Shown here in pieces: positions 14,071 through 30,828 of a stretch of 64,000 nt of DNA. The DNA lies in the NCBI GenBank assembly GCA_021738565.1, contig JAIPBT010000023.1, forward strand, positions 1 to 64,000, written 5' to 3'. Position 1 is the stretch's first letter, and every line of letters starts with the position of its first letter. Origin of the DNA: Bacteroidales bacterium. GTDB taxonomy: Bacteria; Bacteroidota; Bacteroidia; Bacteroidales; GCA-2748055. Both the position numbers and the translations under genes were made by a program. The notes under the pieces are model-generated. The model ran no database searches. It had not been told where the DNA came from and worked only from the letters and a program-made list of their open reading frames with translations.

Positions 14071-14208
14071 GATGAATGGTTTGAAAATATAATGGTTTGC
14101 AATTGGATATTTTAAAGGTAGGAATATTTTCGAAAGGATTTTCAATCCTTACATCCATTGGCGTAAGAACTTCTGTAACCCGACCTTTGGCCACTGACCC
14201 CTGGCTTC

Positions 14209-16584
14209 CTACTTCTTAAACTTAAACTTCACCGTTTTTCCAAACGGATTTTCCTTCAGCTCATATTTTCCCTCCGTGCCGGTAACCTCAATAGAATGTA
14301 ATTCCCCTCCCGGGATAACAACCAGTCCGTCTGCATTGCCGTTCTCATCTTCAAAGACATCAAGGGTGATCCTCGACCAGTCCATGAATGCAGTGGATTG
14401 AGCCAGTTTGATGTGGGGGATCACCGAACCTGCCCGAACCAGTGCAACGATGGGGACCTCACCGGATTCAATATGGTGCCAGCCACCGTTATATGCTGTA
14501 CCTGTCTGGTAATCGATCCATGTTCCGGACGGAAGGTATACATCGCGCGACAATTCATCGCTGAACAGCGGAGCAACCAGCATATCCGATCCGAACATGT
14601 ACTGGTTATCGATCAGCCAGGAGCCGGGATCACCTGGAAATTCCACGAACAATGCCCGCAGCATCGGCAATCCTTTTTCAGAGCAATCATGGGCCTGTGC
14701 ATAGATGTAAGGCATCAGCTCATAGCGCATGTTGGTTGCCTCACGAAAGGCATTCAGGAAATCTTCACCGTATTCCCAGGGTTCGGTGGGCGGGTGACCG
14801 TGGCTCCTTACATGGGAGGTCAGCATACCGAACGGGGTCCAGTGCCTGTAAATATTCTCCGGTGTCCTGGAAACAAAGCCGCCGATGTCGTGACTCCAGA
14901 ATGAGAATCCTGTAAGCCCGATCGAGAGTCCGGCCCTCAGGGTGGCAGACATGGCCGAGTAGGTGTTGGCAGGATCGCCGCCCCAGTGCATCGGGTAACG
15001 CTGACTGCCTGCCCAGGTGCTGCGCGCCCAGATAATCCTTTCTCCGGTTATTTCTTTGGTGATATCCGATACAGCTTTGTTGTACCGCAGCGGGTATAGA
15101 TTATGTTCATAGAAGCCTGTTCTCCCGTTGGAGTACAATCCATTAAATGGCGCTGCCTCGCCGAAATCAACCTTGATCACAGAAACGCCCAGGTCGAGCA
15201 GTCCCTTTATCTTATTCTGGTACCAGTCTACTGCAAGCGGATTGGTAAAATCCAGGACGGCATCTTCCCTTGGCAAGTTTCCTTTGTCGTTCTTGACGTA
15301 AAGGTCTTGCTCTATAATCTCATCAAACAATTTGTTGTTGGGAACGAAATAGGGAAGCTGCCAGAGACAGGTGCGAATCCCCTGGTCCCTGAAATCACTC
15401 AGCATCTTTTCAGGATCATCAAAACGGTCGGGTGCAAAGGTATAATCACATTGCCAGTCGACACCAAACCAGCCTGTATCGAAGTGCAGGACATCCGAAG
15501 GCACCTTGTGCTTCCTCAGCAGGCTCACCACTTCCCTTCCCTCTGCTTCAGAAAAATAGGTGATGCGGCTCATCCAGAAACCGAACGACCACAATGGGGG
15601 TACCGGTGACTTCCCGGTGATGTTCGTATATTCATCAAGGATGTCTTTCGGATCACCCAGAAATAGGAACAGGTCAAGTTCTTCGTCACCGATCATCAAT
15701 GAGGATACACCTGAATAATACTTTCCAAAATCGCAGGTTATCGGGGTGGATGTGTGCATGAATACGCCGTATCCCCGGCTGCTCATAAAGAAGGGAACGG
15801 GCTTGTACATGGTCTCATTCTGTGTGCCGTTGGCATCATCGGTAAACAGCACTACTTTTGATCCCCGCTTGTTGAATTGGGTAAACGACTCTCCCAGCCC
15901 GAATATCTTTTCGCCGGGAGATAGGTTGAATGCAGCATTGAAACTCCTCGAATAATCGGATGCACGTCTGACAAAGCTGAACGGCAGCACAGGCGTGTAG
16001 GTTCCTGAATTCTCCTGCATAGTATTGGTGCTGGTAAGCAACCTGTTGTTACCGTCATATACGCAGATCTGGAAAGGGGCCTCCTGTATCTCAATCCTTC
16101 CCTCCGAACCGGAATAGATGTGGACATTATCCTTTATGCTGTATTGCCACGGATCTGCGGGTTCAACTGTACCATCAACAAGCATTAATGAGCGCTCATC
16201 GTCGTACCGGTCAAATCCGCTTTTTGCCTTGATGCGAACCGTTCTGTCTGAAATGAATTCCAGGGCAAATGGCAGCGTGGGCGATGCTTCATATTCATTA
16301 GCCGGAAATTCATTCTGCTCCACCTCCCTCAATGCTCCCAGCATGTTGTTGAATGCCATCCGCGTGGAATACTCGTACCTGCGGTAAACGATTTTTCCTG
16401 TTGCCGAAGCGGGATCAAAATCGGTCAGCCCCGAAGCCACGTAATAGGTGTTTTGAAAATCAGCGAAATCCTTGCTGATATCCACCGGTTCATTAACAAT
16501 GTTGAAACCCTGCAACTGGGCATTCACAGTGACATTAAATGCAGCAACGAAAATAAGTGCCGCGAACAATCTTAGCTTTTTCAT
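14209..16584 (-). CDS. Glycoside hydrolase family 31, alpha-xylosidase-like
   Basis: A 791-residue exported GH31 enzyme. The signal peptide ends NVNAQ. An N-terminal galactose-mutarotase-like domain leads into the TIM barrel. The nucleophile is Asp473 in IKVDFGE, which matches the KTDFGE of YicI-type alpha-xylosidases better than the WIDMNE of alpha-glucosidases. The predicted acid/base is Asp537 in MHWGGDPANT. The last ~130 residues form the two beta-sandwich domains usual for the family. A role in releasing alpha-linked xylose, for example from xyloglucan fragments, fits the neighbouring GH2 and esterase. It starts 82 bases downstream of the GH2 stop. Confidence 0.93.
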   Translation of the reverse strand: MKKLRLFAALIFVAAFNVTVNAQLQGFNIVNEPVDISKDFADFQNTYYVASGLTDFDPASATGKIVYRRYEYSTRMAFNNMLGALREVEQNEFPANEYEASPTLPFALEFISDRTVRIKAKSGFDRYDDERSLMLVDGTVEPADPWQYSIKDNVHIYSGSEGRIEIQEAPFQICVYDGNNRLLTSTNTMQENSGTYTPVLPFSFVRRASDYSRSFNAAFNLSPGEKIFGLGESFTQFNKRGSKVVLFTDDANGTQNETMYKPVPFFMSSRGYGVFMHTSTPITCDFGKYYSGVSSLMIGDEELDLFLFLGDPKDILDEYTNITGKSPVPPLWSFGFWMSRITYFSEAEGREVVSLLRKHKVPSDVLHFDTGWFGVDWQCDYTFAPDRFDDPEKMLSDFRDQGIRTCLWQLPYFVPNNKLFDEIIEQDLYVKNDKGNLPREDAVLDFTNPLAVDWYQNKIKGLLDLGVSVIKVDFGEAAPFNGLYSNGRTGFYEHNLYPLRYNKAVSDITKEITGERIIWARSTWAGSQRYPMHWGGDPANTYSAMSATLRAGLSIGLTGFSFWSHDIGGFVSRTPENIYRHWTPFGMLTSHVRSHGHPPTEPWEYGEDFLNAFREATNMRYELMPYIYAQAHDCSEKGLPMLRALFVEFPGDPGSWLIDNQYMFGSDMLVAPLFSDELSRDVYLPSGTWIDYQTGTAYNGGWHHIESGEVPIVALVRAGSVIPHIKLAQSTAFMDWSRITLDVFEDENGNADGLVVIPGGELHSIEVTGTEGKYELKENPFGKTVKFKFKK

Positions 16585-16666
16585 ATTTTGTGTTTTATGG
16601 TATTGAATTTTGATTGGCTGTTTGTAATTTATAAAAGATCAAGGAGCCGATCCTTGATATAGATTT

Positions 16667-19099
16667 TCACCTCATTTTCACAGTCACCTCTCTACCCTGT
16701 AACCCTTCTGAATATGCACTGATCCTGATTTCCCCGGGTTTGTTCCCTGCCTGCACAACGGCCAGGCATTTTCCGTTAAATGCTTTCCTTGAAGGCGACC
16801 GGAAGGATTCGTGACCGACCTGGTTGCCATTATCTGTTGCTGCTATGTGTGCATCCCCTTCCACCCTGAACTGTACCATGTTGTCTGCATGCGGAACAAG
16901 AATGCCATTTTCATCCAGCACATTTACCGTCAGGAAAACCAGGTCCCGTCCATCTGCCAATATCTGATCCCTGTCTGCCAGCACTTCAAGTTTTACAGGC
17001 TCACCTGCAGTACGTACGCGTGTAACCAGTGTATCTCCGTCCGGCAACACCCCAACAGCGAGCACTTCACCGGGTTCATAGTTCAGCCTCCATTGCAAAT
17101 GCAGGGTTGTATCATTGTTCTGCTTTACACCCATGGACCTTCCATTAAGGAAAAGCTCCACCGATTCACAGTTTGTGTAGGCCCATACATCGATCTCCTG
17201 TCCGTCTACCCAGTTCCAATGTGGAAATATATGGAGGACAGGTTCATCGGTCCATTCGCTTTTGTACATGTAATACACATCCTTGGGAAATCCTGCCAGG
17301 TCGAAGATCCCGAAATAGGAGCTGCGCGATGGCCAGCCGTAAGGTGTGGGTTCACCAAGGTAATCGAAACCTGTCCAAATGAACATCCCCGACAGGAAAT
17401 CGTGTTTTTTGATTGCCGACCAGGATTCCTCATGCGTGGATCCCCATGGTGTGCTTACATTGTCGTAAGACGATACCGTATGATCGGGGTTGCCGTCACG
17501 AAAAGGCCTGTCCCACCGGTAGGGCCACCTCCTGATGCTGTCGGAGGGCATGTCGTAATACCCCCGGGTCATGAGTCCGGAAGTGGTTTCTGTCGCAATG
17601 AAGAATTTCCCCGGAAAGGTTTCCGGAAACTTCCGGAAATCCTCGTGTTTGTAATTGTATCCGATCACATCCATTACACCCGCTTCAAGCAACATGTTGC
17701 CGGGATAGGGAAAATTATTGCCTGTAACAATCTGTCTGGTTGTATCAAGTTCACGTACAATATCGTACAGCTCCCTGGTCATTTCGATGCCGGAGGAATC
17801 CCATTGCTCAAGAATTTCATTACCGATGCTCCAGAGAAATACGGAAGGATGGTTCCTGTCGCGCAGGATGTGATCCCTGAGATCCCGTTCATGCCATTCG
17901 TCCCAGAACCGGCTGTAGTCGAAGGGAGACTTTCTTTTTGCCCACATATCAAAGGTCTCATCCATTACAAGGAATCCCATCCTGTCGCACAGGTCAAGCA
18001 GTTCCGGCGCGGGTGGATTGTGCGCTGTACGTATGGCATTTACGCCCATGCCCTTCAACAGTTCCAACTGGCGTTCAATGGCCCTCCGGTTCACCGCCGC
18101 TCCAAGGCAACCGAGGTCGTGGTGGTTACACACGCCCAGTATCTTCAAAGGCTTCCCGTTCAGGAAAAAACCCTTCTCACTGTCAAACCTGAAGGTTCTG
18201 ATTCCAAATTTGGTTTCTTTAAGATCCTTTTCTCCTCCCGGTCGTCGGACGGCAATCTGAATGCGGTACAGCTCCGGCTTGTCAACCGACCAAAGCCGGG
18301 GCTTGGTGATCTCAAATGAAGCTTCAAGGTCTGCTGTTGATGAAGCAGGAATAACGGCGACCTTCCTGGCCCTGGAAACAACCTTTCCCGAGGGAGAAAT
18401 GATTTTATAGAAGATGTCAGCTTCCACGGGATCCACGTGTGTGTTCCGAATTGAAGCGGCAACATTCACTGTGGCAGTCTCGTTATGAAACACCGGGGTT
18501 GTAACAAAGGTTCCCCAGGAATCAATATGAACTTTGGGAACTTTGATAAGGTAGACATTGCGGTAGATACCGGAACCAGAGTACCACCTTGAATTGGGCT
18601 GTTCAGAATTATCCACTTTCACAGCAAGTATATTTTCCCGCTCCCCGAAATGAAGCAAAGGAGTCATGTCATAACGGAATGACACATAGCCGTTGGGGCG
18701 TTCCCCGATCAGTTTCCCGTTCAGGTATACTGTGCTGTTCCAATATATTCCGTCAAAATGTATAAAGAAATTCCTTCCTGAGTCCCGGGCAGGAACGGTA
18801 AAATGTTTCCTGTACCAGCCGGTGCCTCCCGGAAGGGCTCCTCCTCCCGTTGTGGCAGGATGCTCCGGGCTGAATTCCCCTTCAATGCTCCAGTCGTGCG
18901 GAATATCCAGCGCCCGCCAGTCATCATCATCCATATCTGTAGCAGAATGATCATCATCTGAGATCAGGAATTTCCAGTCATTATTGAAACGCACCGTTTC
19001 GCGGTCTGAACGCTCCTGAAAACGCGTGCATGTAACCATCGTGGGTAAGATCAGTAACGACAAAAATGTTCTGGATGTGAGCAATAAGAAACGATTCAT
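16667..19099 (-). CDS. Glycoside hydrolase family 2, beta-galactosidase-like
   Basis: An 810-residue GH2 enzyme with an N-terminal signal that may be a lipoprotein signal (MVTC near residue 24). The sugar-binding domain begins around residue 38 (FNNDWKFLI, IPHDWSIEGEF, TGWYRKHFTVP). It is followed by an immunoglobulin-like domain and the TIM barrel, with acid/base Glu428 in WSIGNEILEQW and nucleophile Glu504 in FIATETTSG. The C-terminus carries further beta-sandwich domains of the DUF4982/Big type. Expected to remove beta-galactosyl or related residues from oligosaccharides. It is first in a leftward GH2-GH31-esterase set, with a promoter candidate just upstream. Confidence 0.94.
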   Translation of the reverse strand: MNRFLLLTSRTFLSLLILPTMVTCTRFQERSDRETVRFNNDWKFLISDDDHSATDMDDDDWRALDIPHDWSIEGEFSPEHPATTGGGALPGGTGWYRKHFTVPARDSGRNFFIHFDGIYWNSTVYLNGKLIGERPNGYVSFRYDMTPLLHFGERENILAVKVDNSEQPNSRWYSGSGIYRNVYLIKVPKVHIDSWGTFVTTPVFHNETATVNVAASIRNTHVDPVEADIFYKIISPSGKVVSRARKVAVIPASSTADLEASFEITKPRLWSVDKPELYRIQIAVRRPGGEKDLKETKFGIRTFRFDSEKGFFLNGKPLKILGVCNHHDLGCLGAAVNRRAIERQLELLKGMGVNAIRTAHNPPAPELLDLCDRMGFLVMDETFDMWAKRKSPFDYSRFWDEWHERDLRDHILRDRNHPSVFLWSIGNEILEQWDSSGIEMTRELYDIVRELDTTRQIVTGNNFPYPGNMLLEAGVMDVIGYNYKHEDFRKFPETFPGKFFIATETTSGLMTRGYYDMPSDSIRRWPYRWDRPFRDGNPDHTVSSYDNVSTPWGSTHEESWSAIKKHDFLSGMFIWTGFDYLGEPTPYGWPSRSSYFGIFDLAGFPKDVYYMYKSEWTDEPVLHIFPHWNWVDGQEIDVWAYTNCESVELFLNGRSMGVKQNNDTTLHLQWRLNYEPGEVLAVGVLPDGDTLVTRVRTAGEPVKLEVLADRDQILADGRDLVFLTVNVLDENGILVPHADNMVQFRVEGDAHIAATDNGNQVGHESFRSPSRKAFNGKCLAVVQAGNKPGEIRISAYSEGLQGREVTVKMR

Positions 19100-19635
19100 C
19101 TGGTAATATTGGTTGGTAAGCGTTTATATTACGTTATCAAATGTAGGAAAATTCCTGAATACTGCGAAACAAAGCCGGCTCAATAAAAAAAGCATCCTGG
19201 TGGGATTATGGGAGGAAATTATGCCTTCATTTTCTCCAAATACTACCTGGCAGGCTCTATTTGTGTGTATGTTGACAATGTTTGATTAATTTGTCATTTT
19301 GATTTGATCCCTCCGGAATCAGGGGTTGAGGTGAATCCCAAAAAATCTGCAGCTTTCTTGCAAGCACTAAATAAAATTATTACTCCAGGATCTTTATATC
19401 ATCCAAAGATGTCATATCATACCCCCGGATCCCTGCTGTGACCATGCCCTGTTATTCGTTCGTCAAACAAAACCGAACCTTCATGTGGTCAAACTATATG
19501 TTTGTCAATAAAACTTACTCTGTTGAACATTTGAAAGTAATTATGGTTGTCTTTGTGATGTTTAATATAAGAATTACAGACCTTTTTTTATTATTAATTT
19601 TAAGCCCCTGTTTTTTTACAAAAATCATTCAAACC
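19100..19635. other. Divergent intergenic region between GH2 and the giant beta-helix gene
   Basis: A 536-base gap between divergently transcribed genes. An open frame in phase with the giant gene runs back to 19438, but its residues look untranslated and it precedes a classical signal peptide, so it is treated as leader. Apart from the GH2 promoter candidate I see no repeat, riboswitch or small gene. Confidence 0.5.
19138..19170 (-). promoter_or_regulatory. Candidate promoter for the GH2-GH31-esterase set
   Basis: The minus strand carries TACATTTG (19145-19138), a perfect match to the Bacteroidetes TAnnTTTG box, about 39 bases before the GH2 start codon. The upstream element is weaker: TTTCG lies about 19 bases away, or TTTG about 24 bases away. 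It is the best promoter candidate for the carbohydrate cluster. Confidence 0.45.
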
Positions 19636-22600
19636 ATGAAAAAGCAACTTCTACTTTTATCATTTTTTTTTATCGGCCTTACCGGCTTTTCACAAACCAA
19701 TAAATCAGGTACAATCTCAGTGGACGAAACCTGGACCACAACAGGCAGTCCATACAATGTAACGGCTAACCTGACAATTGCCGACGGTGTAACACTGACC
19801 ATCCAGAGCGGTGTTACCGTCAACGTAAGTTCCGGACAAAAGATCGAAGTGCTCGGAACACTGGATGCGACCGGTGCAACCATCACCTCGGCAGAGACTA
19901 CTCCGGCACCCGGGGACTGGCAATACATTGTGGTTGGAAATTCCTCCATTGTGGGTTCTGCCACACTGACTGACTGTGACATTTTGTACGCAGATCATTT
20001 TTACCTGTACAATGGTACGGCAACACTCGATGGAACAGACCTCCTGAATTTTGAAAACTATGGGGTCAATATCCGAAATACTACCGGAACACTCGTTATG
20101 AAAAACGGTGATATCAGCACTTCTTCCACCTGGGCAACTGACAATTCAAGTGCAGCGGGAGTGGAAATGAGTTATGGAGGAAATGTTACGCTGAACAATG
20201 TCAACATCAGCGGTTTTTACAATGGCCTCTACAGCAATTACCATGGTGCATCGGTGATGGATATTGATACTTCATCGATAAGTAACGGCACATACGGGGT
20301 AAGATTCAATACCAACGATACGGTTCAATTCAATACTGTATCAATTTCAAATACAGACAGACCAATTTTTTATGATGGCCCGGGGCACTTAATCGCAGAA
20401 GGCACAAACACATTCACCGGAAACCTTTCCAATGTTGCTTATATTTATTTTACGTCAAATAGCAACAACTGGGTACTACCCACACTGAACATTCCATACT
20501 GGTTTATATCTGGTTTTACCGTAAATGAAAGCGGAAGCCTCACGATAGGCCCAGGTAATATTCTTAAGTCTGGCTCCTCCATAAATATGAACGGAACCCT
20601 GTATGCCGATGCCCCGGTAGGATCCGCCATCTACTTTACATCCCACCTTGATGACAACTGGGGCGGAGATTCCAACAACGATGGATCGGCCACCGCACCT
20701 GCAGCCGCAAACTGGCAGGGACTGAGATTCAACAACGACAGTACAGCATCAGCCTCAGTCCTCCGCAGGGTGAAAATCAGGTATGCAGGTAGTTACAACA
20801 GTTATTATGGTTCTCTTGATGGTGGGGTTACTACTGTAAACTCCAGTCCAACCATAGATTCCTGTGAATTTACCAGCAACGTCTTCGGCATCGTCATGAA
20901 AGGGATATCAAATCCTGAATTGTCATACACGTCTATTGGCTCCAGCTCTGTGACCCCAATTGCCATGTCTTTTGAATCCAGCCCGGTGATGACGGAAAAC
21001 GTATTGTCATTCTCCGACAACCAGTACGATGCCATCGGACTGCTGGGCGGATCACTAACTGCTGATGCCTCCATCATACAACGATCCTTTACCAACATAG
21101 ACAGCATTACCTATTTCATGCTTGGAAAGATCACCATTCCCCAGGGAAGAACTCTCACCATCGATCCCGGGGTTGTGATCAAGGGAGACAACCGATACAA
21201 TATCCTGGTTGAAGGGACACTGATTGCTAATGGAACTGAATCAGACCCGATCGTGTTTACTTCTGCAAAGGACGACAACCACGGGAATCCCAACGATACC
21301 AACAAGGATGGTACAAGTACAACGCCTGCAATCGGAAATTTTGGGGGTATATTTTTTGCTCCCACTGCAAGCACCAGTTCATCTGTTGACAATTGCATCA
21401 TTAAATATGCATCGGCAAGCAATGAAAATTATTACAGCACGTCGATGAATGATGCAGCGATCATCACTGCCAACGTTAGTCCTTCCATCACCAACAATGA
21501 GATCAAGGATGTGAATTACGGCATAAAGTTCTATGAGGCCTCCAGTGCGACAGTCTCCGGGAACAACATGGTAAATGTCAAATACACTCCATTCGCGGTA
21601 TCAGGTTCAGCCGACCCTGTATTTACAGGAAACACATACTCCAATGTAGGATGGAATGCGCTCGGACTGCTGGGAGGTGTAGTTACGCAGAACGGTACCA
21701 TCAGGAAGCGCACTGTTGCAGGTTATGAAAACATTACCTACATACTGCTAAGTACAATGACCATCAACGAAGGAACCTATGTGGACGTTGAACCCGGTGT
21801 TGTAATTAAGTTGCTCAATCAGAGCATCCATGTAAAAGGAGGTTTCCAGGCCCTGGGGACCACCACGGAAAAGATCGTTTTCACCTCAACCTACAATGAC
21901 AACATCGGGAACCCGGGTGATACGAATGGCGACGGGAATTCTACAGCTCCCACCCGCGGGAACTGGGACAGGATCCTTTTTGAGGATACAAGCGATGATG
22001 CATACTGTAAACTGGACAACGTCGAAGTAAGTTATGGTGGAGACAACTATTGGTTAAGGAATTATTCCTCTCTTCAATTTAGCAATGCCAGCCCAGTGAT
22101 CTCAAATACACTGGTCAACCAGGGATTGCATTATGGCCTGCGTATAGAAGGGAACTCAGCACCTGTATTCGATGGTGTTACCATCCAGAACTGTGAGTCC
22201 AGTCCTGTCGGAATGTCACTTGCATCCGACCCGCAATTCAGCAACATGTCGTTTGTTGCAAACCGCGACAAGGCGCTTGCACTGCTCGAAGGAACACTTT
22301 CTTCAGATGCCACACTCGAAGTAAGAAATGTAGCGGGCATTGATAATATCGCCTATGTGCTGGACAAGACACTTACTGTTGGTTCCAATGCAACACTCAC
22401 CCTGGCTCCCGGTATCGTGATCAAATCCTACGGCCAGTATATTTATGTCGATGGCGCGCTTGTTGCAGATGCAACTTCCGATAACAAGATCACATTCACA
22501 TCCATCAAGGATGATTCAGCTGGTGGAGACAGCAACGATGATGGAAACAATTCCGTTCCTTCTCCGGGCAACTGGGGAGGGATAGTATTCAGATCCAGCG

Positions 22601-25086
22601 GAATCGATAATACAAACATCCTGCAGAACTGCAACATCAGGTATACCAGCAATCCTGTGAAGGTAGAGAGCGCATACGCGCTAATCGACTCATCTGTCAT
22701 CGAACTGGCCCGTTACAATGCCTTTACCATCAGTGGCTCTGCAGATCCTGTAATAACCAACAACGAGATCTTTAATGTGGCCTATTTCCCTGTACGCATG
22801 AGCATGTTCTCAAATCCTGTTTTCTCAGGGAACAGCATTGCAAATGTCGGATCCAGGACAATTGAGGTGATCGCTGAGACATATTCCCAGTCCGACACGA
22901 TCCCGTTCAGGAGCTTCGCCGATATTGACAGCATCACCTACCACCTGAACGGTACATATACCATCAATGACGGAACCGTTCTTACCATTCCCGCCGGAAT
23001 GGTTTTTGAAACAGCGAGGAGTTATTCGTATTATTCCTACTCATCTGCTAATTTCAGTGTAAACGGCCGGTTGATGGTCGAGGGCACAGCTGCGGAGCCA
23101 GTAGTATTTACAAGTTTTTATGACGATGATTACGGACGTCCTCTTGACAGCGGGAATGACGGTCCGACCAGCATCTCCAGCTGGAACGGTACATGGATCA
23201 CGTTTAACAACGTAAGTGACGATTCCAGCCGGATAGAACATGCTATTTTCAGGTACAGCAGTCTTGGTGCTGAACTGAAAAGTGCATCACCAACCTTCTC
23301 AAACAACATGTTCAGGGACATGAACACGGGAATAGCTATGAATGGGGTTTCAGAGCCTTTATTCTCGGGCAACACTTTCCACGATCTGAAATATTGTCCA
23401 TTCACCATTTCCCTGGTTGCTTATCCGGCGCTGACCGAGAACAATGTCATCTCAGGAACCACTTACAGGATGATCGAGGTGAATTACGAGACCCTTACAC
23501 AGGATGTGACCCTTCCGAGAAGGACTTTCGGTGGAATTGAGAACATCCCCTATATGTTCAACTATTATACAATTGGAACAGGAGCCATACTCAGCATCGA
23601 TCCCGGCGTAGTAATGAAATTCACCAACGGTGGTTATATCAATGTACAGAAAGGGCTGCTGGCAAATGGCAAGGAAGGAGCCGACAGCACCATTGTATTC
23701 ACTTCTATTTATGATGATTTTTACGGTGGCGATTCCAATGCCGATGGTGACAATACAAGTTCAAGCGATGGTTCCTGGCGAGGTATAGAGTTTCAGAATA
23801 CCGCTATTGACGCTTCCTGTGTCATTACCAACGGGGTGATCAAAAATACGGGCGGATATTCGGCTGTTGTTACATACAGTGCCAGCCCGACCATTACATA
23901 CACATCATTCATAAACGTAAACGAGGGGATTAATATCCAGGGCTCATCCAATCCTGTGATCAACTACAGCGATTTCTTCGATGTTCACAGCCTGGCTGTA
24001 AACAATGTGGATATGTCATTCACTGTTGATGCCACCAACAACTGGTGGGGAAACAACTCCGGTCCGACCCATGCCGGCAATCCCGATGGCACCGGGGAAG
24101 AGGTTACCGACGGAGTCACATATGATCCCTGGATGACCATGGGCAACAACCCGATCATGGGTGATGTGAGTCTGAACGGAAGGGTGCAGGCATATGATGC
24201 TTCACTTATATTGCAACATGCGGTGGCCAGTATTACCCTGGATGCGGCCCAGCAGGTAGTGGCCGATGTAAGCGACAATGGCGATGTTTCAGCTTTTGAT
24301 GCATCCCTGATCCTCCAGTTCTCAGTGGGACTAATCGATTACTTTGCAGCAGAAGAAACCAAGAAATCTGCAACGGTTCAAACGGTTTCCGATGTTGAAC
24401 TGAGCATGGATAATTTCACGGTATACCCGGGAGATGAGATCATGGTCCCGGTGAGGATCTCCATGGTGGATAACCTATACTCCCTGCAGGCTGTATTAAG
24501 ATATGATCCTGCTGTTCTCACGCTTACCGATCTTTCTACAGCGGCACTGATCAGCAATATGAATGTGAACATCAACATCAAAGAAGGAAAGATCTATATT
24601 GCTGCAGCAGGCACATCACCATTAAATAATGCAGGAGATGTTGCCTACCTTACATTCACCGTTGAAGAAAGCATTGTAGAATCAGGTACGGCAAACGTCG
24701 AAGTGGACAAATTCCTTGCCAACGATGCCAACCTTACATCCCTGGCATCGGGTGCCAAGATTACGTTCTACGGAAGTCCGACAGGCGTGGATCTGTTGAA
24801 TGCAGATCAGTCAGGTCTCGGGGACATCTACCCGAACCCGGTTCGCGATTACACCAACATCACTTACAGGGTTGATGCAGACAACCGGCACGTGAGACTT
24901 GAAGTATACAATACCTTCGGCCAGGTTGTGACGAGCCTCGTGAATGAAACTCAGCTCACAGGTAACTACACTTACCAGTGGGATGCCACGGACCAGAGTG
25001 GGAACAGGCTTTCAGAAGGGGTTTACTACATCAGGTATCAATCCAACGGTGATGCACAAACCAGGAAGATACAAATCATTCATTAG
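19636..25086 (+). CDS. Giant T9SS cargo protein: beta-helix repeats, dockerin, cohesin, sorting tail
   Basis: An 1816-residue surface or secreted protein. The ATG at 19636 opens a signal peptide (MKKQLLLLSFFFIGLTGFSQ). Residues ~25-1500 are right-handed parallel beta-helix (PbH1-like) repeats. Six ~205-residue modules each carry an Asp/Asn/Gly-rich probable calcium loop such as DDNWGGDSNNDG, at about 20650, 21271, 21898, 22507, 23119 and 23713. Residues ~1509-1568 form a dockerin-like pair of EF-hand-type loops (GDVSLNGRVQAYDASLIL and ADVSDNGDVSAFDASLIL; Asp1510 and Asp1544 are 34 residues apart). Residues ~1587-1712 look like a cohesin domain. The C-terminus is a T9SS type-A tail (YPNP at 1732). 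No catalytic centre is visible. It is followed closely by a second cohesin-bearing cargo gene. Confidence 0.88.
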   Translation: MKKQLLLLSFFFIGLTGFSQTNKSGTISVDETWTTTGSPYNVTANLTIADGVTLTIQSGVTVNVSSGQKIEVLGTLDATGATITSAETTPAPGDWQYIVVGNSSIVGSATLTDCDILYADHFYLYNGTATLDGTDLLNFENYGVNIRNTTGTLVMKNGDISTSSTWATDNSSAAGVEMSYGGNVTLNNVNISGFYNGLYSNYHGASVMDIDTSSISNGTYGVRFNTNDTVQFNTVSISNTDRPIFYDGPGHLIAEGTNTFTGNLSNVAYIYFTSNSNNWVLPTLNIPYWFISGFTVNESGSLTIGPGNILKSGSSINMNGTLYADAPVGSAIYFTSHLDDNWGGDSNNDGSATAPAAANWQGLRFNNDSTASASVLRRVKIRYAGSYNSYYGSLDGGVTTVNSSPTIDSCEFTSNVFGIVMKGISNPELSYTSIGSSSVTPIAMSFESSPVMTENVLSFSDNQYDAIGLLGGSLTADASIIQRSFTNIDSITYFMLGKITIPQGRTLTIDPGVVIKGDNRYNILVEGTLIANGTESDPIVFTSAKDDNHGNPNDTNKDGTSTTPAIGNFGGIFFAPTASTSSSVDNCIIKYASASNENYYSTSMNDAAIITANVSPSITNNEIKDVNYGIKFYEASSATVSGNNMVNVKYTPFAVSGSADPVFTGNTYSNVGWNALGLLGGVVTQNGTIRKRTVAGYENITYILLSTMTINEGTYVDVEPGVVIKLLNQSIHVKGGFQALGTTTEKIVFTSTYNDNIGNPGDTNGDGNSTAPTRGNWDRILFEDTSDDAYCKLDNVEVSYGGDNYWLRNYSSLQFSNASPVISNTLVNQGLHYGLRIEGNSAPVFDGVTIQNCESSPVGMSLASDPQFSNMSFVANRDKALALLEGTLSSDATLEVRNVAGIDNIAYVLDKTLTVGSNATLTLAPGIVIKSYGQYIYVDGALVADATSDNKITFTSIKDDSAGGDSNDDGNNSVPSPGNWGGIVFRSSGIDNTNILQNCNIRYTSNPVKVESAYALIDSSVIELARYNAFTISGSADPVITNNEIFNVAYFPVRMSMFSNPVFSGNSIANVGSRTIEVIAETYSQSDTIPFRSFADIDSITYHLNGTYTINDGTVLTIPAGMVFETARSYSYYSYSSANFSVNGRLMVEGTAAEPVVFTSFYDDDYGRPLDSGNDGPTSISSWNGTWITFNNVSDDSSRIEHAIFRYSSLGAELKSASPTFSNNMFRDMNTGIAMNGVSEPLFSGNTFHDLKYCPFTISLVAYPALTENNVISGTTYRMIEVNYETLTQDVTLPRRTFGGIENIPYMFNYYTIGTGAILSIDPGVVMKFTNGGYINVQKGLLANGKEGADSTIVFTSIYDDFYGGDSNADGDNTSSSDGSWRGIEFQNTAIDASCVITNGVIKNTGGYSAVVTYSASPTITYTSFINVNEGINIQGSSNPVINYSDFFDVHSLAVNNVDMSFTVDATNNWWGNNSGPTHAGNPDGTGEEVTDGVTYDPWMTMGNNPIMGDVSLNGRVQAYDASLILQHAVASITLDAAQQVVADVSDNGDVSAFDASLILQFSVGLIDYFAAEETKKSATVQTVSDVELSMDNFTVYPGDEIMVPVRISMVDNLYSLQAVLRYDPAVLTLTDLSTAALISNMNVNINIKEGKIYIAAAGTSPLNNAGDVAYLTFTVEESIVESGTANVEVDKFLANDANLTSLASGAKITFYGSPTGVDLLNADQSGLGDIYPNPVRDYTNITYRVDADNRHVRLEVYNTFGQVVTSLVNETQLTGNYTYQWDATDQSGNRLSEGVYYIRYQSNGDAQTRKIQIIH

Positions 25087-25119
25087 TAATGGATTCAACC
25101 AAGTGAATGCAAACTTTTA

Positions 25120-25128
25120 AAAGGAGAT
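25120..25128 (+). promoter_or_regulatory. Ribosome binding site that decides the start of the second giant gene
   Basis: An AAAAGGAGA purine run lies six bases before the ATG at 25134. Strong Shine-Dalgarno sites are uncommon in this phylum. It favours that ATG over the in-frame ATG at 25107 and gives a cleaner signal peptide (MRQTFKNFLILFLLLAGGEL). Confidence 0.6.
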
Positions 25129-25133
25129 TACTA

Positions 25134-28100
25134 ATGAGACAAACTTTCAAAAATTTCTTAATTCTCTTTCTGCTTCTTGCAGGAGGAGAATTATTCAGTC
25201 AATCCATAGGAATGCGTATTCCCGATACCACGGGCGTCGAGGGAACATATATTGACATTCCGGTTTACGCCGACAGCTCTTTTACAGATAAAGGAGTATT
25301 TTCATATGTGTTGGGGATAACTTACAACAGCAATTACCTCAGAGCTGACTCTGTGATCACTGAAGGAGCCATTGCAGGCTCTTTCGGCTCTGCAACTGCC
25401 AACCTTGATGATCCGGGCTTTATTGGCATTACAGGAGCCGGATCCTCCACATTGACAGGCAGTGGTGCATTCATTTACATCAGGTTCGAATTGCTTCAAC
25501 CCGGCACTATGTACATCGGATTCACAGCCTCGAATGAATATAACTACTTTAACGAGGGAAATCCCCTGATGGAATATATAAATGGAAGCGTTAACATTAC
25601 TCCGGCGCCCAAAATAACCATCGGACCCAACAGTTCACTGCTTCAGTCAGGCGAACAACTCCAGATGTATGTCAGAGGAGACACGCTTTCACCATTCACC
25701 TGGGAAGTTGTTGATACTGCAGTTGCAAGCATTGATGAAAGCGGACTGTTGACTGCAACAGGTCCGGGGATCAATAAGGTTAGTGTGACTGACAGCAATG
25801 GTCTCACAGACATAACAGACGGTTCCATTGAGGTACGCGGTTACAGGTTGAGCATTCCGGGAAACCTGGAAGAATGGCAGGGAGGAACCATCGACATACC
25901 AGTAAACACTACCGACCTCACCGGTCTGGGCATAGTGTCAGGGAACTTCACTGTAACTTACAACCAGGGGCTCCTGGAATTAGTAGAAATTATTACGGAT
26001 ACAACGCTGCTGGACGGAATTGTTCCTCAATATAATTTAGGGAACAATGCCATTGATATTGCATTTGCAGAGAATACACCGATTACCGGAGAAGGTGCGC
26101 TCATGTACCTCAGATTTGACATCTCTTCTGAAAATACAGGAGCTACCAGCCTGAGTTTCAACGATGTGCTTTTTAATGAGGATCTACTTGCCATGATTAC
26201 CAATGGCTATTTCTCCACCATCAACTTTGCAAACATCAGCATCAGTCCAAATACTGCAACGGTCATTGCGGGAGATTCACTGCAGTTTTCTGCTTCGAAC
26301 GGGATTCTTCCCTACACCTGGAGCTCCAGTGATACTTCTGTAGCTAAAATAGACAGCTCCGGTATGCTTTTGGGGATCCACAGCGGGGTAATACAGGTAA
26401 CAGCCGTTGATTCGGCCGGCGCAACCAAAACAAGCGGCAACATCACCGTTATTGATACGGAGGTTATCGTTCCGGATACCACCGGACCGGTCAATGCATC
26501 CTTTAATCTCCCGGTTTACATCAATGATCTTCCTGAAGGCAGATCTGTATCGTCCCTTGAAGCTGAATTCAGTTTCAGGACCCCGGAATTGGAGTATGTC
26601 GGGATCGTTACTTCCGGAACACTTACTGAAGGTTGGACATTCTCCGAATCATCCTCCGGTAATCTTATCAACCTTGCTATGGCAGGGGCGAATGGATTCA
26701 ACCAGGAAGGCATATTGTTCTACATAAGCTTCAATCTGACAGCTGATCTGACGCTCAACGAGTACGCCTATGTAAATATCAACAGCCTTCTCCTGAATGA
26801 GAGAACGCCAAATGCCAGAACTGATAATGGAAACATCATCGGATCCAAAAGCGAGGACCTTGGGGCATCTGCCATCATTTCGCCAGTTACGGCATGTGAA
26901 TTGACCGGTGCGGAGAGCGTTACGGTATCTGTTTACAATTACGGCTACATTACCTACAGTGCAGGAGATACCATAGTTGTTGGATACCAGCTTAACAGCG
27001 AAAATTCCATAAAAGACACTTTGATCCTGTCAGCTGAACTGCCGCCGGCGTCTTCTGTTGATTTTACCTTTGATTCAACAGTGAACATGTCCGCCCCCGG
27101 TAGCTACACCCTTAGTGCATATACATTATTAAGCAACGAATTTGACGGAAATACGGGAAATGATAAAAAAACCGTACAGATAGAAGTTTACGGGGATCTT
27201 GCCGTTTCGCTCGGCAGTGATGTGATTGCCTGTGAAGACGACACGGTTACATTGAATGCAGGTACCGGGTTTGAAACCTACACCTGGTCCAATGGTAGTT
27301 CTTCAACGGAATTCCTTGAAGTTACCGCATCAGGCGAATATTCCGTTATCGTTACCAATTCGCTGGGATGCCAGGGCACCGATACGGTCCTGGTCACCTT
27401 TAATGCACTTCCTGTTGTCGAGCTCGGAAGCGATACATCCATATGTGATGGTAGTGTTGTAACTCTCGATGCCGGATCCGGATTTGCATCCTACAACTGG
27501 AATCGAGGAGTTTCATCTGCACGGGAGCTCGCAGTTGACACCTCAGGAACATATTTCGTTGAAGTCACAGATACATATGGATGTTCATCTGTTTCGGATA
27601 CAATCAACATCACTGTTTTGCCTTTGCCGGAAGTGGATCTTGGCAGTGACACGGCCCTTTGTGCCGGCAGTGTGCTGGAGATTTCTGCAGGAACAGGTTT
27701 CAGCAGCTATGCCTGGTCCACCGGCGACTCCACTGAAACCATTTCCGTGGACCAGTCGGGCACCTACATTGCCACAGTGAACAATGCTAACGGGTGTTCA
27801 AACAGCGATACGATCCTGGTTGATTTTGTGCAGGTGGATGTTAACCTCGGTGAAGATGTAATTCTTTGTGAAGGATCCGACTACACGATCCAGGCACCAA
27901 ACGGAGATTACCTGTATGAATGGTCCGATAACAGCACCGGCAGTTCGATCACAGTGAGCCAGACAGGAACCTATTCCGTTACTGTCACCGATATAGTTAC
28001 CGGGTGTTCAAGCTCTGATACCATTGATGTTTCATTTGATTCCGAAATTACAGTGGACATGGGTCCGGATGTATATGCCTGCGGTACCGATTCGGTTGTG

Positions 28101-29762
28101 CTTTCAGCAGGGAACGGTTTTGACACCTACAACTGGGAAGGGACAACAAACAATACTTCAGAGCTCATCGTGACGGAATCCGGAACATATGTTGTAACGG
28201 TCACCAGCGGCAGCAACTGCTCTGCTACGGATACGGTAGAGGTATTCTACAATCCTGCTCCATCTCTGGAACTGGGAGCCGATATTGCTGCATGTGTGGG
28301 TGATTCTGTTCTGCTTGTTGCACCTTCCGGTTTTTCGGTCTACAACTGGAACAACGGATTGTCGGACAATGACACATTGCTTGTTACTGAACCAGGAACA
28401 TATGTTCTGGAAGTTGCCAACGAATTCGGATGTACAGTAAAAGATTCGCTGAATGTTGCTTTTGACTCAATCCCTGATATAACCATCAGTGGGGATACAG
28501 TCATCTGTGGAGGCAGCACAGTTGAACTTATTGCATCCGGGGCCGACACATATACCTGGAACACTGGAGAAACAACCGCCTCCATTTTTGTATCACCTGT
28601 GGAACCCATGGTTTATGAGGTAACAGGCACAGTCAATGCGTGCTCCGCGACTTCATCGATCGCGGTTCATGTGAATGAATCCTATCTCATCGAAGAAAAT
28701 GTGGCCATTTGTGCAGGTGACAGTGTAATGTGGGACGGCAATTATTATTCTGTTGCAGGAACCTATGAGGAAACCTATCCTTCAGTATCCGGTTGTGACA
28801 GCACAACACGCCTGAACCTGGAGGTTGGAACTTCATTCCTGACCGAAGAAGAGGTCACAATCTGTGAAGGCGACAGCGTGATGTGGGATGGGGCATACCT
28901 ATATCCCGAAGCAGGCACCTACCAATATGAGCTAAGCCTCACCTCCCTTTCCGGCTGCGACAGCACTGTTCGGCTAACCCTGAATGTAATACCTTCCTAC
29001 CTTTTTGAGGAGAATATTTCAATTTGCCAGGGAGACAGTGTGCAGTGGCAGGGCAATTACTACGATACTACTGGAATTTATGACATGGCATACCAGCCTC
29101 TGTTCGGATGTGACAGTATATATCGCCTGAACCTGGTTGTCGGGGAACCCTCTATCGATACTTTAGCATACTCGCTTTGCGGAGGTGATACACTAACCTG
29201 GCAGGGCATGGTCCTGACTGAAACAGGACAGTATGCATATACGACCACATCAGGCACTGGATGTGACAGTACGATAGTACTTGACCTTACAGTATTTGAG
29301 CAACCTGATACTCCTGTTGTTGCATTCAGTGATTCGATTCTTACTTCAAGTGTACCGGATGGCAACCAATGGTATTTCAATGGAACAGCCATCGAAGGCG
29401 CCACAGAACAGACTTTTAAAGTGATTCAAGAGGGAGACTATTTCGTGATCGTTACAAGTGCCGATGGGTGTTTATCGGCACCATCCGATACCCTGGCAGT
29501 AACCTTCACCAATGTGACTGAATTCAATAATTTCAACGTGAATATTTACCCGAATCCGGCCACTGATGTATTGTTCGTTGAAAACAGCAGCGGCATGGAG
29601 ATGCAGTTCGATATCTATGACATAACAGGTAAAAAGATGATGAATACCCTCATCAGGGGTGATTTTGAAGAAGTGGATATCATTGATCTGAAACCATCGC
29701 TCTACTTCATTAAAATCACAATAGATGGAAGCACCAGGGTGGATAAAGTGATCATTGAATAG
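25134..29762 (+). CDS. Giant T9SS cargo protein: three cohesin-like domains, BIG2-like and Ig-like arrays
   Basis: A 1542-residue secreted modular protein. Approximate order: signal peptide 1-22; cohesin-like 25-154; BIG2-like 158-236 (SIDESGLLTATGPG); cohesin-like 237-363; BIG2-like 364-441; cohesin-like 443-572; CARDB-like 574-688; seven ~70-residue Ig-like repeats 689-1182, most with a VxLGxD opening and a Cys pair; four C-x-G-D-S/T-x-W repeats ending in GCDS 1183-1392; one more Ig-like domain; and a T9SS sorting tail with YPNP at 1472. There is no enzyme domain. Cohesin-like folds bind dockerins in cellulosomes, and the gene immediately upstream encodes a dockerin, so a scaffold role is attractive but inferred. 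It probably shares a transcript with that gene. Confidence 0.88.
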   Translation: MRQTFKNFLILFLLLAGGELFSQSIGMRIPDTTGVEGTYIDIPVYADSSFTDKGVFSYVLGITYNSNYLRADSVITEGAIAGSFGSATANLDDPGFIGITGAGSSTLTGSGAFIYIRFELLQPGTMYIGFTASNEYNYFNEGNPLMEYINGSVNITPAPKITIGPNSSLLQSGEQLQMYVRGDTLSPFTWEVVDTAVASIDESGLLTATGPGINKVSVTDSNGLTDITDGSIEVRGYRLSIPGNLEEWQGGTIDIPVNTTDLTGLGIVSGNFTVTYNQGLLELVEIITDTTLLDGIVPQYNLGNNAIDIAFAENTPITGEGALMYLRFDISSENTGATSLSFNDVLFNEDLLAMITNGYFSTINFANISISPNTATVIAGDSLQFSASNGILPYTWSSSDTSVAKIDSSGMLLGIHSGVIQVTAVDSAGATKTSGNITVIDTEVIVPDTTGPVNASFNLPVYINDLPEGRSVSSLEAEFSFRTPELEYVGIVTSGTLTEGWTFSESSSGNLINLAMAGANGFNQEGILFYISFNLTADLTLNEYAYVNINSLLLNERTPNARTDNGNIIGSKSEDLGASAIISPVTACELTGAESVTVSVYNYGYITYSAGDTIVVGYQLNSENSIKDTLILSAELPPASSVDFTFDSTVNMSAPGSYTLSAYTLLSNEFDGNTGNDKKTVQIEVYGDLAVSLGSDVIACEDDTVTLNAGTGFETYTWSNGSSSTEFLEVTASGEYSVIVTNSLGCQGTDTVLVTFNALPVVELGSDTSICDGSVVTLDAGSGFASYNWNRGVSSARELAVDTSGTYFVEVTDTYGCSSVSDTINITVLPLPEVDLGSDTALCAGSVLEISAGTGFSSYAWSTGDSTETISVDQSGTYIATVNNANGCSNSDTILVDFVQVDVNLGEDVILCEGSDYTIQAPNGDYLYEWSDNSTGSSITVSQTGTYSVTVTDIVTGCSSSDTIDVSFDSEITVDMGPDVYACGTDSVVLSAGNGFDTYNWEGTTNNTSELIVTESGTYVVTVTSGSNCSATDTVEVFYNPAPSLELGADIAACVGDSVLLVAPSGFSVYNWNNGLSDNDTLLVTEPGTYVLEVANEFGCTVKDSLNVAFDSIPDITISGDTVICGGSTVELIASGADTYTWNTGETTASIFVSPVEPMVYEVTGTVNACSATSSIAVHVNESYLIEENVAICAGDSVMWDGNYYSVAGTYEETYPSVSGCDSTTRLNLEVGTSFLTEEEVTICEGDSVMWDGAYLYPEAGTYQYELSLTSLSGCDSTVRLTLNVIPSYLFEENISICQGDSVQWQGNYYDTTGIYDMAYQPLFGCDSIYRLNLVVGEPSIDTLAYSLCGGDTLTWQGMVLTETGQYAYTTTSGTGCDSTIVLDLTVFEQPDTPVVAFSDSILTSSVPDGNQWYFNGTAIEGATEQTFKVIQEGDYFVIVTSADGCLSAPSDTLAVTFTNVTEFNNFNVNIYPNPATDVLFVENSSGMEMQFDIYDITGKKMMNTLIRGDFEEVDIIDLKPSLYFIKITIDGSTRVDKVIIE

Positions 29763-29790
29763 ACAGGAACATCTTTTATATACTGAAAGG

Positions 29791-29828
29791 CCCTTCCATG
29801 CAATGTATGGAGGGGTTTTTCTTTTTTT
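29791..29828 (+). terminator. Rho-independent terminator after the giant gene pair
   Basis: A 9-bp stem with one G-T pair (29791-29799 with 29806-29814) and a six-base loop, followed by a long T-rich tail. It closes the two-gene transcript of cohesin/dockerin proteins. Confidence 0.85.
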
Positions 29829-30121
29829 AGGCAATCCGGTTGCAGGGAGCGAACCAATAATAAACTACAACTTTCAGTATGTGAAATGCAAATGTAAAAT
29901 TGCGTAATAAGTTGCATGTCAATATTTTAATATCCACATTCAAATTCGTACACTCCGTACAAACCTGTGCATAATCGGACAATTTTAACACATTTTTACA
30001 TCTTCACAAAAACGCTATATATCTGCATACCTGTAACTTAAACGATTTGGCATGAATTGTGATTTTTTTGAACCAATACATACAAACAATTATTCTCAAT
30101 GAACATTTAATATTAGAAATT
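29829..30121. other. Leader and spacer before the small secreted orphan
   Basis: An A/T-rich stretch between the terminator and the next signal-peptide gene. I see no supported gene and no clear repeat. A promoter for the downstream gene should lie here, but I found no convincing TTTG / TAnnTTTG pair. Confidence 0.4.
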
Positions 30122-30604
30122 ATGAAAACAAAGGTTAGTTTTATTTCAAGGATGATGACAATTGCAGTGGCAATTGTTATGACAGGTACAACAGTTTTTG
30201 CTGATGGCGGGATCACTGATGTATACACAACCGGGACCACGAATACACCGGCTGGTGATTTTGTGGTAAGATCCACCAATGATCTCTTTTACTTCCAGGG
30301 AGAGAAGTACGAAGTCTTTAAGGTTTATTACGACGATCCTGCAATGAACATGAAGATTGCCGTTAACCCGGATGAAAAATGTAAATCACTTATTGCATTT
30401 ACCGATGACTATACATTGTTCTATCAGTGTAATAGGCATGGTTTTGGGGTTCGAAGGGTTCTTTTTGCAAATCCTGATGCACAAAAAAGGTTTGATCCTG
30501 ACAAATATCAATCCCAAACCGTACTTTCCAAAAAACGCAGGATAGAGAAAAAGGATGCCGTGAAATTGATTGCCGGTTTTCTTCCCGGAATGCAATTATC
30601 ATAA
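30122..30604 (+). CDS. Small secreted protein of unknown function
   Basis: A 160-residue protein with a signal peptide ending VFADG (about residue 26). The mature ~134 residues include DLFYFQGEKYEVFKVYYDD, two Cys (one after DEK, one in FYQCNRHG) that could pair, and a basic KKRRIEKKD segment near the C-terminus. No family is recognised. The ATG at 30122 is chosen because it opens the signal peptide; the frame runs 21 codons further upstream with no export signal. It has its own strong terminator and lies directly after the giant cohesin/dockerin genes, but has no T9SS tail. Confidence 0.75.
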   Translation: MKTKVSFISRMMTIAVAIVMTGTTVFADGGITDVYTTGTTNTPAGDFVVRSTNDLFYFQGEKYEVFKVYYDDPAMNMKIAVNPDEKCKSLIAFTDDYTLFYQCNRHGFGVRRVLFANPDAQKRFDPDKYQSQTVLSKKRRIEKKDAVKLIAGFLPGMQLS

Positions 30605-30637
30605 TAAACTAACCACAACATATCAGAACTTACCCGT

Positions 30638-30675
30638 AAAAAAAGCGGCTTCAATTTGAAGCCGCTTTTTTTTCA
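30638..30675 (+). terminator. Rho-independent terminator after the small secreted orphan
   Basis: A 9-10-bp G/C-rich stem (AGCGGCTTC with GAAGCCGCT) around a five-base A/T loop, flanked by an A run on the left and a T run on the right. The flanking runs would let it act on both strands. Confidence 0.92.
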
Positions 30676-30828
30676 TTTTTTCCCGTACCATGTTCAACGA
30701 TTCTTCCTCCCCTGACCGTTGCACCCAGAACAATCCCGGCGCTCATTGCCACAAGATTCTTAACACTTATCCTTAACAAACAGGTGAGAAGAATTCTATA
30801 AAAACGCAAATGGGGGTAAATTGGACAT

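Follow-up and report, generated by a model that had tools for sequence, protein, structure and literature searches.

A conserved cohesin–dockerin gene pair with type IX secretion tails in a Bacteroidales genome: a predicted enzyme-free surface complex

Introduction

To our knowledge, cohesin and dockerin have been studied almost solely as the clips of enzyme complexes. What might such a clip hold together where no enzyme carries it? The question is raised by two adjacent genes in a 64,000-nucleotide stretch of DNA (the window) from a Bacteroidales bacterium, GenBank assembly GCA_021738565.1. The window belongs to contig C35; the draft genome amounts to 3.98 Mb in 83 contigs and is 98.5% complete. 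Gene A (19636-25086, forward strand) encodes a dockerin-bearing protein and gene B (25134-29762, forward strand) a protein with three cohesins; both products end in a sorting domain of the type IX secretion system (T9SS). On balance we lean towards the view that A and B form one transcription unit making an enzyme-free, surface-bound complex, predicted to act as an adhesive or structural coat. The pairing of A with B is argued mainly from two results: genomes in which these two proteins account for all the dockerins and cohesins found, and a one-directional linkage of dockerin and cohesin genes across the phylum.

Several questions are addressed in assessing this proposal. Are the modules genuine? 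Is the pair conserved as a unit? Is there any other dockerin for the cohesins of B to meet? Are enzymes involved?

Organization of the two genes

The coordinates of the pair in the original prediction, which was made from the sequence alone, and the 47-base gap between the genes (25087-25133) are exact. Feature limits are collected in Table 1. The ATG at 19636 opens MKKQLLLLSFFFIGLTGFSQ and the orthologue in genome G001 begins likewise; an in-frame GTG occurs further upstream, at 19438. For gene B there is a further in-frame ATG upstream, at 25107.

The three modules read earlier at the end of A, a two-loop dockerin, a cohesin and a T9SS tail, all score above the curated Pfam cut-offs. Dockerin_1 (PF00404, cut-off 22.9 bits) matches residues 1509-1559 narrowly, at 24.6 bits, Cohesin (PF00963, cut-off 24.1) residues 1588-1703 at 58.2 bits and Por_Secre_tail (PF18962, cut-off 27) residues 1731-1814 at 39.8 bits; TIGR04183 also finds the tail, at 30.2 bits. 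The extents assigned to these domains were right. The body of the protein, which had gone unnamed, is a right-handed beta-helix matched by seven Beta_helix stretches (PF13229). It carries six acidic insertions of the form FTSxxDDxxG..DG, spanning 20635-23748 with a period of approximately 200 residues (20635, 21256, 21880, 22495, 23107 and 23698), which are a possible second calcium-binding element.

A residue rule is established for the 12-residue calcium loop of dockerins. In A the loop is duplicated, DVSLNGRVQAYDASLIL and DVSDNGDVSAFDASLIL at residues 1510 and 1544, and ASLILQ follows each loop (DVSLNGRVQAYD and DVSDNGDVSAFD). Searched alone against the PDB, the A dockerin matches 8x39_A (5.1e-7; a serine-protease entry with two matched stretches), 4uyq_B (3.4e-5) and 1ohz_B (1e-3). 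Family profiles built here from 27 related dockerins and from 34 related cohesins, five of them A cohesins, match 4uyp_B at 1.1e-10 and 2vn5_A at 9.3e-14, respectively. An AlphaFold model of A residues 1495-1816 (six sequences) has a mean pLDDT of 62.8, with ten-residue blocks of the cohesin at 64-88; cohesins make up most of its top 50 Foldseek matches, the first being 2w1n.

In B the three Cohesin stretches sum to 75.9 bits and lie with two Big_2 matches; Por_Secre_tail matches residues 1471-1541 at 46.6 bits and TIGR04183 scores 53.3 bits. The AlphaFold model of B residues 22-580 (18 sequences, mean pLDDT 89.8, pTM 0.52) contains three cohesin folds. VIA alignment places model residues 2-137 on 6kgc_A (Z 17.2), 215-345 on 3kcp_A (Z 16.8) and 419-550 on 5nrm_A (Z 17.9, root-mean-square deviation 1.9 over 130 aligned residues). 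The Archaeoglobus fulgidus cohesin 2xdh is among the best fold matches (Z 17.3) and is also the best PDB match of cohesin 2 in a phmmer search (1.3e-5). The earlier reading would have failed had no cohesin or dockerin profile matched, or had the folds been generic Ig-like sandwiches; neither outcome occurred, as matches exceed the Pfam cut-offs and the B domains match solved cohesins with Z of 16.8-17.9. No catalytic domain above its Pfam cut-off was found in A or B, in keeping with the remark that none was visible, and Pfam gives no carbohydrate-binding module (CBM) in B, even with E allowed up to 1.

Conservation of the gene pair

The A-B unit is well supported as a conserved unit. A search with the whole of A covered 41 genomes, own included, and gave long matches in G001, G002, G003, G006 and G008. 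A contig scan with a dockerin-cohesin alignment identified 17 loci, five of them on the same contigs as the whole-A matches; with the window these make 18 pairs. The named hosts are Bacteroidales, Marinilabiliaceae and Bacteroidetes bins, with one Ignavibacteria and one Chlorobiota bin. In 17 of 17 loci a B gene (843-1385 aa) on the same strand is the next open reading frame (ORF) of 150 aa or more after A, and the two genes are separated by -1 to 141 bases (16 pairs measured). At E ≤ 0.01 the B proteins of the 18 pairs match Big_2 and the T9SS tail in every case and Cohesin in 17; the A proteins match Beta_helix in 18, Dockerin_1 in 17 and the T9SS tail in seven, the A of G003 being cut by a contig end.

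Within A, conservation peaks in the dockerin, with a mean top-residue frequency of 0.79 and 27 of 63 columns invariant, although this conservation is raised, and partly built in, by the discovery of all 17 loci through dockerin patterns; the presence of B was unselected. For the cohesin of A the mean frequency is 0.44, with three of 124 columns invariant. The best conserved part of B is the cohesin/Big_2 half (0.60, 0.54 and 0.51 for the cohesins, 0.59 and 0.64 for the Big_2 domains); later regions fall to 0.25-0.46 and residues 1001-1460 have 0 of 460 columns invariant.

A third gene of more than 1100 aa lies 3' of B in 11 of the 17 loci (L111-L121), each time cut at the locus end, and none is present in the window. 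A complete example from G003 (L087:993-10148) encodes 3051 aa with CARDB and a T9SS tail. PKD_4 matches 11 of the 18 B proteins, probably at the same loci.

Dockerins and cohesins in the genome and the phylum

Both family profiles contain members from the own genome, which are found by construction; the informative part is that no further matches appear. At E ≤ 1 the dockerin profile has two matches, one in A and the other in a protein of 702 aa encoded on contig C6; the cohesin profile has five, three in B, one in A and one in the C6 protein. Pfam Cohesin recovers the same five, all above cut-off, four of them in A and B. With PF00404 the A dockerin stands alone at E ≤ 0.001; at E ≤ 0.1 seven further places appear, all below cut-off, in ORFs of 1044-1168 aa. 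None of the seven is recovered by the dockerin family profile at E ≤ 1 and we set them aside as probable chance matches. Other dockerin-bearing proteins, suggested as something to look for, thus amount to the C6 protein, found by the family profile. In this protein the lamin-tail-like segment (30.5 bits against a cut-off of 34.3) and the tail-like end (16.2 bits) score under their cut-offs and the cohesin (33.2 bits) over. It was aligned with eight counterparts from relatives; in those of G002 and G003 the dockerin passes the PF00404 cut-off.

None of the three carriers, A, B and the C6 protein, has a catalytic Pfam domain. A full-length PorU sortase, the only component of the T9SS machinery searched for, is encoded at C65:3345-6659 (1267 bits). 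Of the features of a cellulosome, a multi-cohesin scaffold is present, in the form of B with its three cohesins, and neither dockerins on catalytic subunits nor a CBM on the scaffold was found in this genome, which combines cohesins and dockerins with none on enzymes. A and B would therefore, as far as domain content tells, be classed as a non-cellulosomal cohesin-dockerin system, the pairing itself being predicted.

One main argument for partnership, still an indirect one, comes from 12 genomes (the own, those with few dockerins and two with two pairs) searched with PF00404 and the cohesin family profile, both at E ≤ 0.01. In four of them, G415, G409, G094 and G203, which are 98-99% complete and represent three genera, the search recovers a single dockerin, in A, and four cohesins, three in B and one in A. 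In these closed sets the A dockerin is the sole dockerin found that the cohesins of B could meet. We note that the PF00404 score in G415 is below cut-off and that the A frame in G409 is just 818 aa. G160 also has one dockerin, its further cohesins being one full and one partial. Further PF00404 matches occur once each in G044, G137, G361, G299 and G212 and twice in G306.

The phylum was sampled with 392 genomes, drawn evenly, each at least 85% complete and with the own genome included. At the threshold used (family profile E ≤ 1e-4, with only the best 15 or 10 candidates scored in many genomes) dockerins occur in 78 genomes (134 places); cohesins occur in 119. Only G218 and the own genome represent the class of the window among the dockerin genomes, all others belonging to other classes. 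Linkage was assessed by comparing the 134 dockerins with 150 listed cohesin matches from 49 of the 119 cohesin-bearing genomes, so that the counts are lower bounds. At least 49 of the 134 dockerins are accompanied by a cohesin in another ORF on the same strand, no more than 8 kb away; they come from 40 of the 78 dockerin genomes, that of the window among them. Among the matches listed, this ORF lies downstream in all 49 cases and upstream in none, and no dockerin has such a neighbour on the opposite strand. A single downstream ORF with three or more cohesins follows at least 20 dockerins in at least 16 genomes, and in 18 of the 20 the first cohesin begins 786-885 bases after the dockerin. Two genomes, G299 and G212, have two dockerin-cohesin gene pairs each.

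Twenty linked loci were fetched and present three layouts: a beta-helix/dockerin/cohesin protein followed by three cohesins; a longer dockerin protein with two cohesins and often a one-cohesin gene; and a cohesin-dockerin protein followed by a cohesin gene. At E ≤ 0.001, 19 of the 20 linked dockerin proteins match a T9SS tail, 16 Dockerin_1, nine Beta_helix and five Cohesin.

Assessment of the proposed assembly

Conserved gene order and the four closed genomes support the earlier suggestion that the A dockerin pairs with the B cohesins, which stays a prediction from sequence. Calcium-dependent folding of dockerins and their binding to cohesins are established for both families. A and B would enter the periplasm by way of their signal peptides and leave it through the T9SS, which may fix them to the surface, as the tails and the PorU gene suggest. 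Outside the cell, calcium would fold the A dockerin, and this module, with its two alike loop-helix repeats, would then bind one of the three B cohesins; judged from the cohesin count, up to three beta-helix proteins A could be held per B. The near-identical repeats also hint at a dual binding mode of the A dockerin; dual binding is stated for a clostridial cohesin-dockerin pair in the titles of PDB entries 2vn5 and 2vn6. More tentatively, the cohesin of A may take a further dockerin, from another A or from the C6 protein, to give a net of units. The resulting structure would serve as an adhesive or structural coating and not in catalysis, a role we consider likely because of the beta-helix, Ig, Big_2 and PKD content and the lack of enzymes. 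Self-assembly of the pair into a calcium-dependent matrix, as originally proposed, is consistent with the data.

Might A instead assemble mainly with itself, its dockerin engaging the cohesin of a neighbouring A in head-to-tail fashion, or folding back on its own, with B a separate cap or anchor? The two modules of A are just 11 to 28 residues apart (measured from the match limits of the family profiles and of Pfam). In Paenibacillus guangzhouensis, proteins that combine a dockerin with a cohesin are described as monovalent adaptors (PMC11557425). The family profile moreover detects the A cohesin in 11 of the 12 genomes of the closed-set search, all but G361 and including the four closed ones, and a C6-type protein with a cohesin and a dockerin-like stretch occurs in G009, G016 and G023, where the A-B pair was not found. 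However, conservation of the A cohesin falls far below that of the dockerin, and Pfam (E ≤ 0.01) matches it in just five of the 18 A proteins. Among the 20 fetched phylum loci a cohesin in the same ORF comes after the dockerin in eight and just before it in four (both in two), whereas a separate cohesin gene follows in all 20, the loci having been chosen for that. The AlphaFold model of A residues 1495-1816 is too poor to judge docking of the dockerin on its own cohesin. Because the A cohesin is divergent, B appears the better supported docking partner, and we consider assembly of A mainly with itself unlikely.

It is likewise improbable, in our judgement, that the dockerin and cohesins do not bind each other, being relics or generic domains of Ig-like and EF-hand-like type, and that A and B are simply co-expressed T9SS surface proteins. 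Matched at the level of domains the B folds are cohesins, the dockerin and the cohesin/Big_2 half are what is best conserved in A and B, and dockerin and cohesin genes show directional linkage across the phylum. What speaks for this reading is that some dockerin loops are degenerate and that Foldseek with the whole B chain places Ig-repeat and further long proteins at the top, with 2xdh at rank 49 (TMt 0.79), an effect that a string of beta-sandwiches can have. An unusual cellulosome, in which B would hold dockerin-bearing enzymes on the surface, is very unlikely. B does have the layout of a multi-cohesin scaffold, the opposite strand upstream carries GH2, GH31 and esterase-like genes, and dockerins are found on enzymes elsewhere in the phylum, in G027 and G294. 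Yet no enzyme of the own genome has a dockerin by the family profile at E ≤ 1, the seven further PF00404 places are all below cut-off, and the products of the neighbouring genes match neither dockerin nor T9SS tail, while flanks vary among loci. An enzyme missed from a genome that is 98.5% complete is possible but unlikely, and an enzyme cellulosome in the own genome was rejected, two dockerins having been found and neither on an enzyme.

Returning to the enzyme-free A-B complex that we favour, we caution that several observations weigh against it. In the AlphaFold model of A, helices follow the dockerin loops at the expected places, but pLDDT is mostly under 50; because of this low confidence the fold of the A dockerin rests on sequence. 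The second loop lacks the usual residues in two of the 18 A homologues (L108 and L110) and has an insertion in L109, and in the C6 dockerin it is irregular, PF00404 missing that module at E ≤ 0.1. The low number of A proteins with a Pfam cohesin counts here too, as does the selection of the loci through dockerin patterns. For 85 of the 134 dockerins in the phylum sample, the matches listed include no cohesin ORF at a distance of 8 kb or less. Finally, Peptidase_S8 is present on one of the 20 linked dockerin proteins, and the layout is therefore usually, not always, enzyme-free.

Comparison with known systems

Non-cellulosomal cohesin-dockerin systems are already known; an enzyme-free adjacent pair with T9SS tails appears to be new. 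In the archaeon A. fulgidus the cohesin and dockerin genes are adjacent, and the two modules occur together in one of the proteins; no T9SS, beta-helix body or set of three cohesins is known there. Clostridium perfringens is not known to have a cellulosome, and in the type I cellulosomes of clostridia the dockerins are on enzymes and there are CBM3 and SLH or similar anchors. A. fulgidus resembles A-B in having cohesin and dockerin without cellulosomal enzymes, and its cohesin 2xdh matches B. The C. perfringens cohesins are carried by glycoside hydrolases (2w1n, 2jh2 and 2vo8), whereas no catalytic domain was matched in A or B. Clostridial cellulosomes (1ohz, 2vn5/2vn6, 4uyp) share the module folds and the two-loop dockerin, and A-B differs from them by its T9SS tails and beta-helix body.

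Among Gram-negative-type organisms, Candidatus Stygibacter (Cloacimonadota), as described in PMC8542988, has a cohesin scaffold with a C-terminal surface-attachment domain and dockerin proteins. There, however, dockerins are on GH18, GH57, S8 and C25 enzymes and the scaffold carries CBMs; no enzyme and no CBM was matched in A-B. The same paper cites a planctomycete 'planctosome'. The P. guangzhouensis adaptors (PMC11557425) resemble A in having one dockerin and one cohesin per chain, but they belong to a Gram-positive organism, often have GH domains and occur with SLH-anchoring scaffoldins. For Bacteroidota, PMC10266427, on cockroach-gut single-cell genomes, reports dockerins above the Pfam cut-off and a cohesin only in a Firmicute. 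PMC3534657 reports no cellulase gene with dockerin or scaffoldin domains in Melioribacter roseus. No description of an enzyme-free T9SS cohesin-dockerin operon was found in the parts of the open-licence cohesin/dockerin literature searched.

If the proposed assembly is right, the cohesin-dockerin clip is also a general means of assembling the Gram-negative outer surface. A dockerin gene with a close downstream cohesin gene is present in at least 40 of the 392 phylum genomes, and at least 16 have the three-cohesin version. Small closed test cases are offered by the genomes where the searches recovered no more than one dockerin and four cohesins, and the family is a possible source of new orthogonal clips for protein engineering.

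Different arrangements are seen elsewhere in the phylum. In G027, of the same order (loci L093, L094, L095 and L166-L185), searches give 39 matches to PF00404 at E ≤ 0.1 and nine to cohesin. Pfam was run on 17 of the dockerin proteins of G027: seven carry Peptidase_C25 and one Peptidase_C10, and 13 have the dockerin about 15 residues or fewer from the C-terminus and no T9SS tail match. T9SS tails are carried by a 1239-aa protein with three cohesins and by its 2466-aa neighbour, whose cohesin matches are weak. This looks like a proteolytic cellulosome-like set. G294 (loci L186-L197) has ten dockerins; in eight of nine proteins scanned the dockerin is within about 40 residues of the C-terminus with no T9SS tail match, one such protein being a polysaccharide lyase 14, and an 870-aa protein with several cohesins has a T9SS tail. 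The sets of both genomes are cellulosome-like, and in both the dockerin often sits where a T9SS tail would be. One speculative reading, which we hold to be doubtful, is that across Bacteroidota the plug serves as an address code additional to the T9SS tail: tailed scaffolds and tailed dockerin proteins would build an enzyme-free coat, while in G027, G294 and similar genomes the dockerin would replace the tail, tail-less proteins (peptidases, lyase) being anchored, and perhaps exported, by docking to a tailed scaffold.

Feature table and flanking sequence

Table 1. Features of genes A and B, the sequence 3' of B and the C6 protein
Feature	Position	Strand	Basis or remark
Gene A, 1816 aa: signal peptide, beta-helix repeats, dockerin, cohesin, T9SS tail	19636..25086	+	ORF and Pfam
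A Sec-type signal peptide	19636..19695	+	Judged by eye from sequence
A right-handed beta-helix body, six FTSxxDDxxG..DG acidic insertions	19696..24075	+	PF13229, seven stretches; limits approximate
A type I dockerin, loops DVSLNGRVQAYD and DVSDNGDVSAFD	24157..24345	+	PF00404 above cut-off, PDB matches
A cohesin	24388..24771	+	PF00963, 58.2 bits; family profile; model resembles solved cohesins
A T9SS type A sorting domain	24826..25077	+	PF18962 and TIGR04183 above cut-off
Gap between A and B, 47 bases	25087..25133	+	No terminator-like hairpin listed by pattern scan
Gene B, 1542 aa: signal peptide, three cohesins with two Big_2 between, Ig-like repeats, T9SS tail	25134..29762	+	ORF and Pfam
B cohesin 1	25200..25604	+	Pfam, family profile, 6kgc_A Z 17.2
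B Big_2 domain 1	25605..25838	+	PF02368 (two stretches in B); limits approximate
B cohesin 2	25836..26225	+	Pfam, family profile, 3kcp_A Z 16.8
B Big_2 domain 2	26226..26438	+	PF02368 residues 365-435; 7r3t_B Z 12.7
B cohesin 3	26451..26840	+	Pfam, family profile, 5nrm_A Z 17.9
B Ig/CHU_C-like repeat region, varies among relatives	26856..29513	+	Ig_7 and PKD_4, below their cut-offs; limits approximate
B T9SS type A sorting domain	29544..29756	+	PF18962 and TIGR04183 above cut-off
Terminator-like hairpin 3' of B, 17 pairs and T run	29785..29821	+	Pattern scan only
C6 protein, 702 aa: lamin-tail-like, cohesin, dockerin-like, tail-like end	L007:8254-10362 (contig C6)		

The terminator pattern scan of 19000-30700 found 11 sites against 8.9 (standard deviation 3.2) in shuffles, so the hairpin 3' of B is suggestive only. 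RNA features were sought in the window, with none at gathering score and no tRNA. The GH2, GH31 and esterase-like genes 5' of A occupy 13159-19099 on the reverse strand; a functional tie to them was rejected, as flanks vary among the pair loci. On the 3' side of B, a 181-aa ORF without a Pfam match lies at 30059-30604, with a second terminator-like hairpin at 30638-30672.

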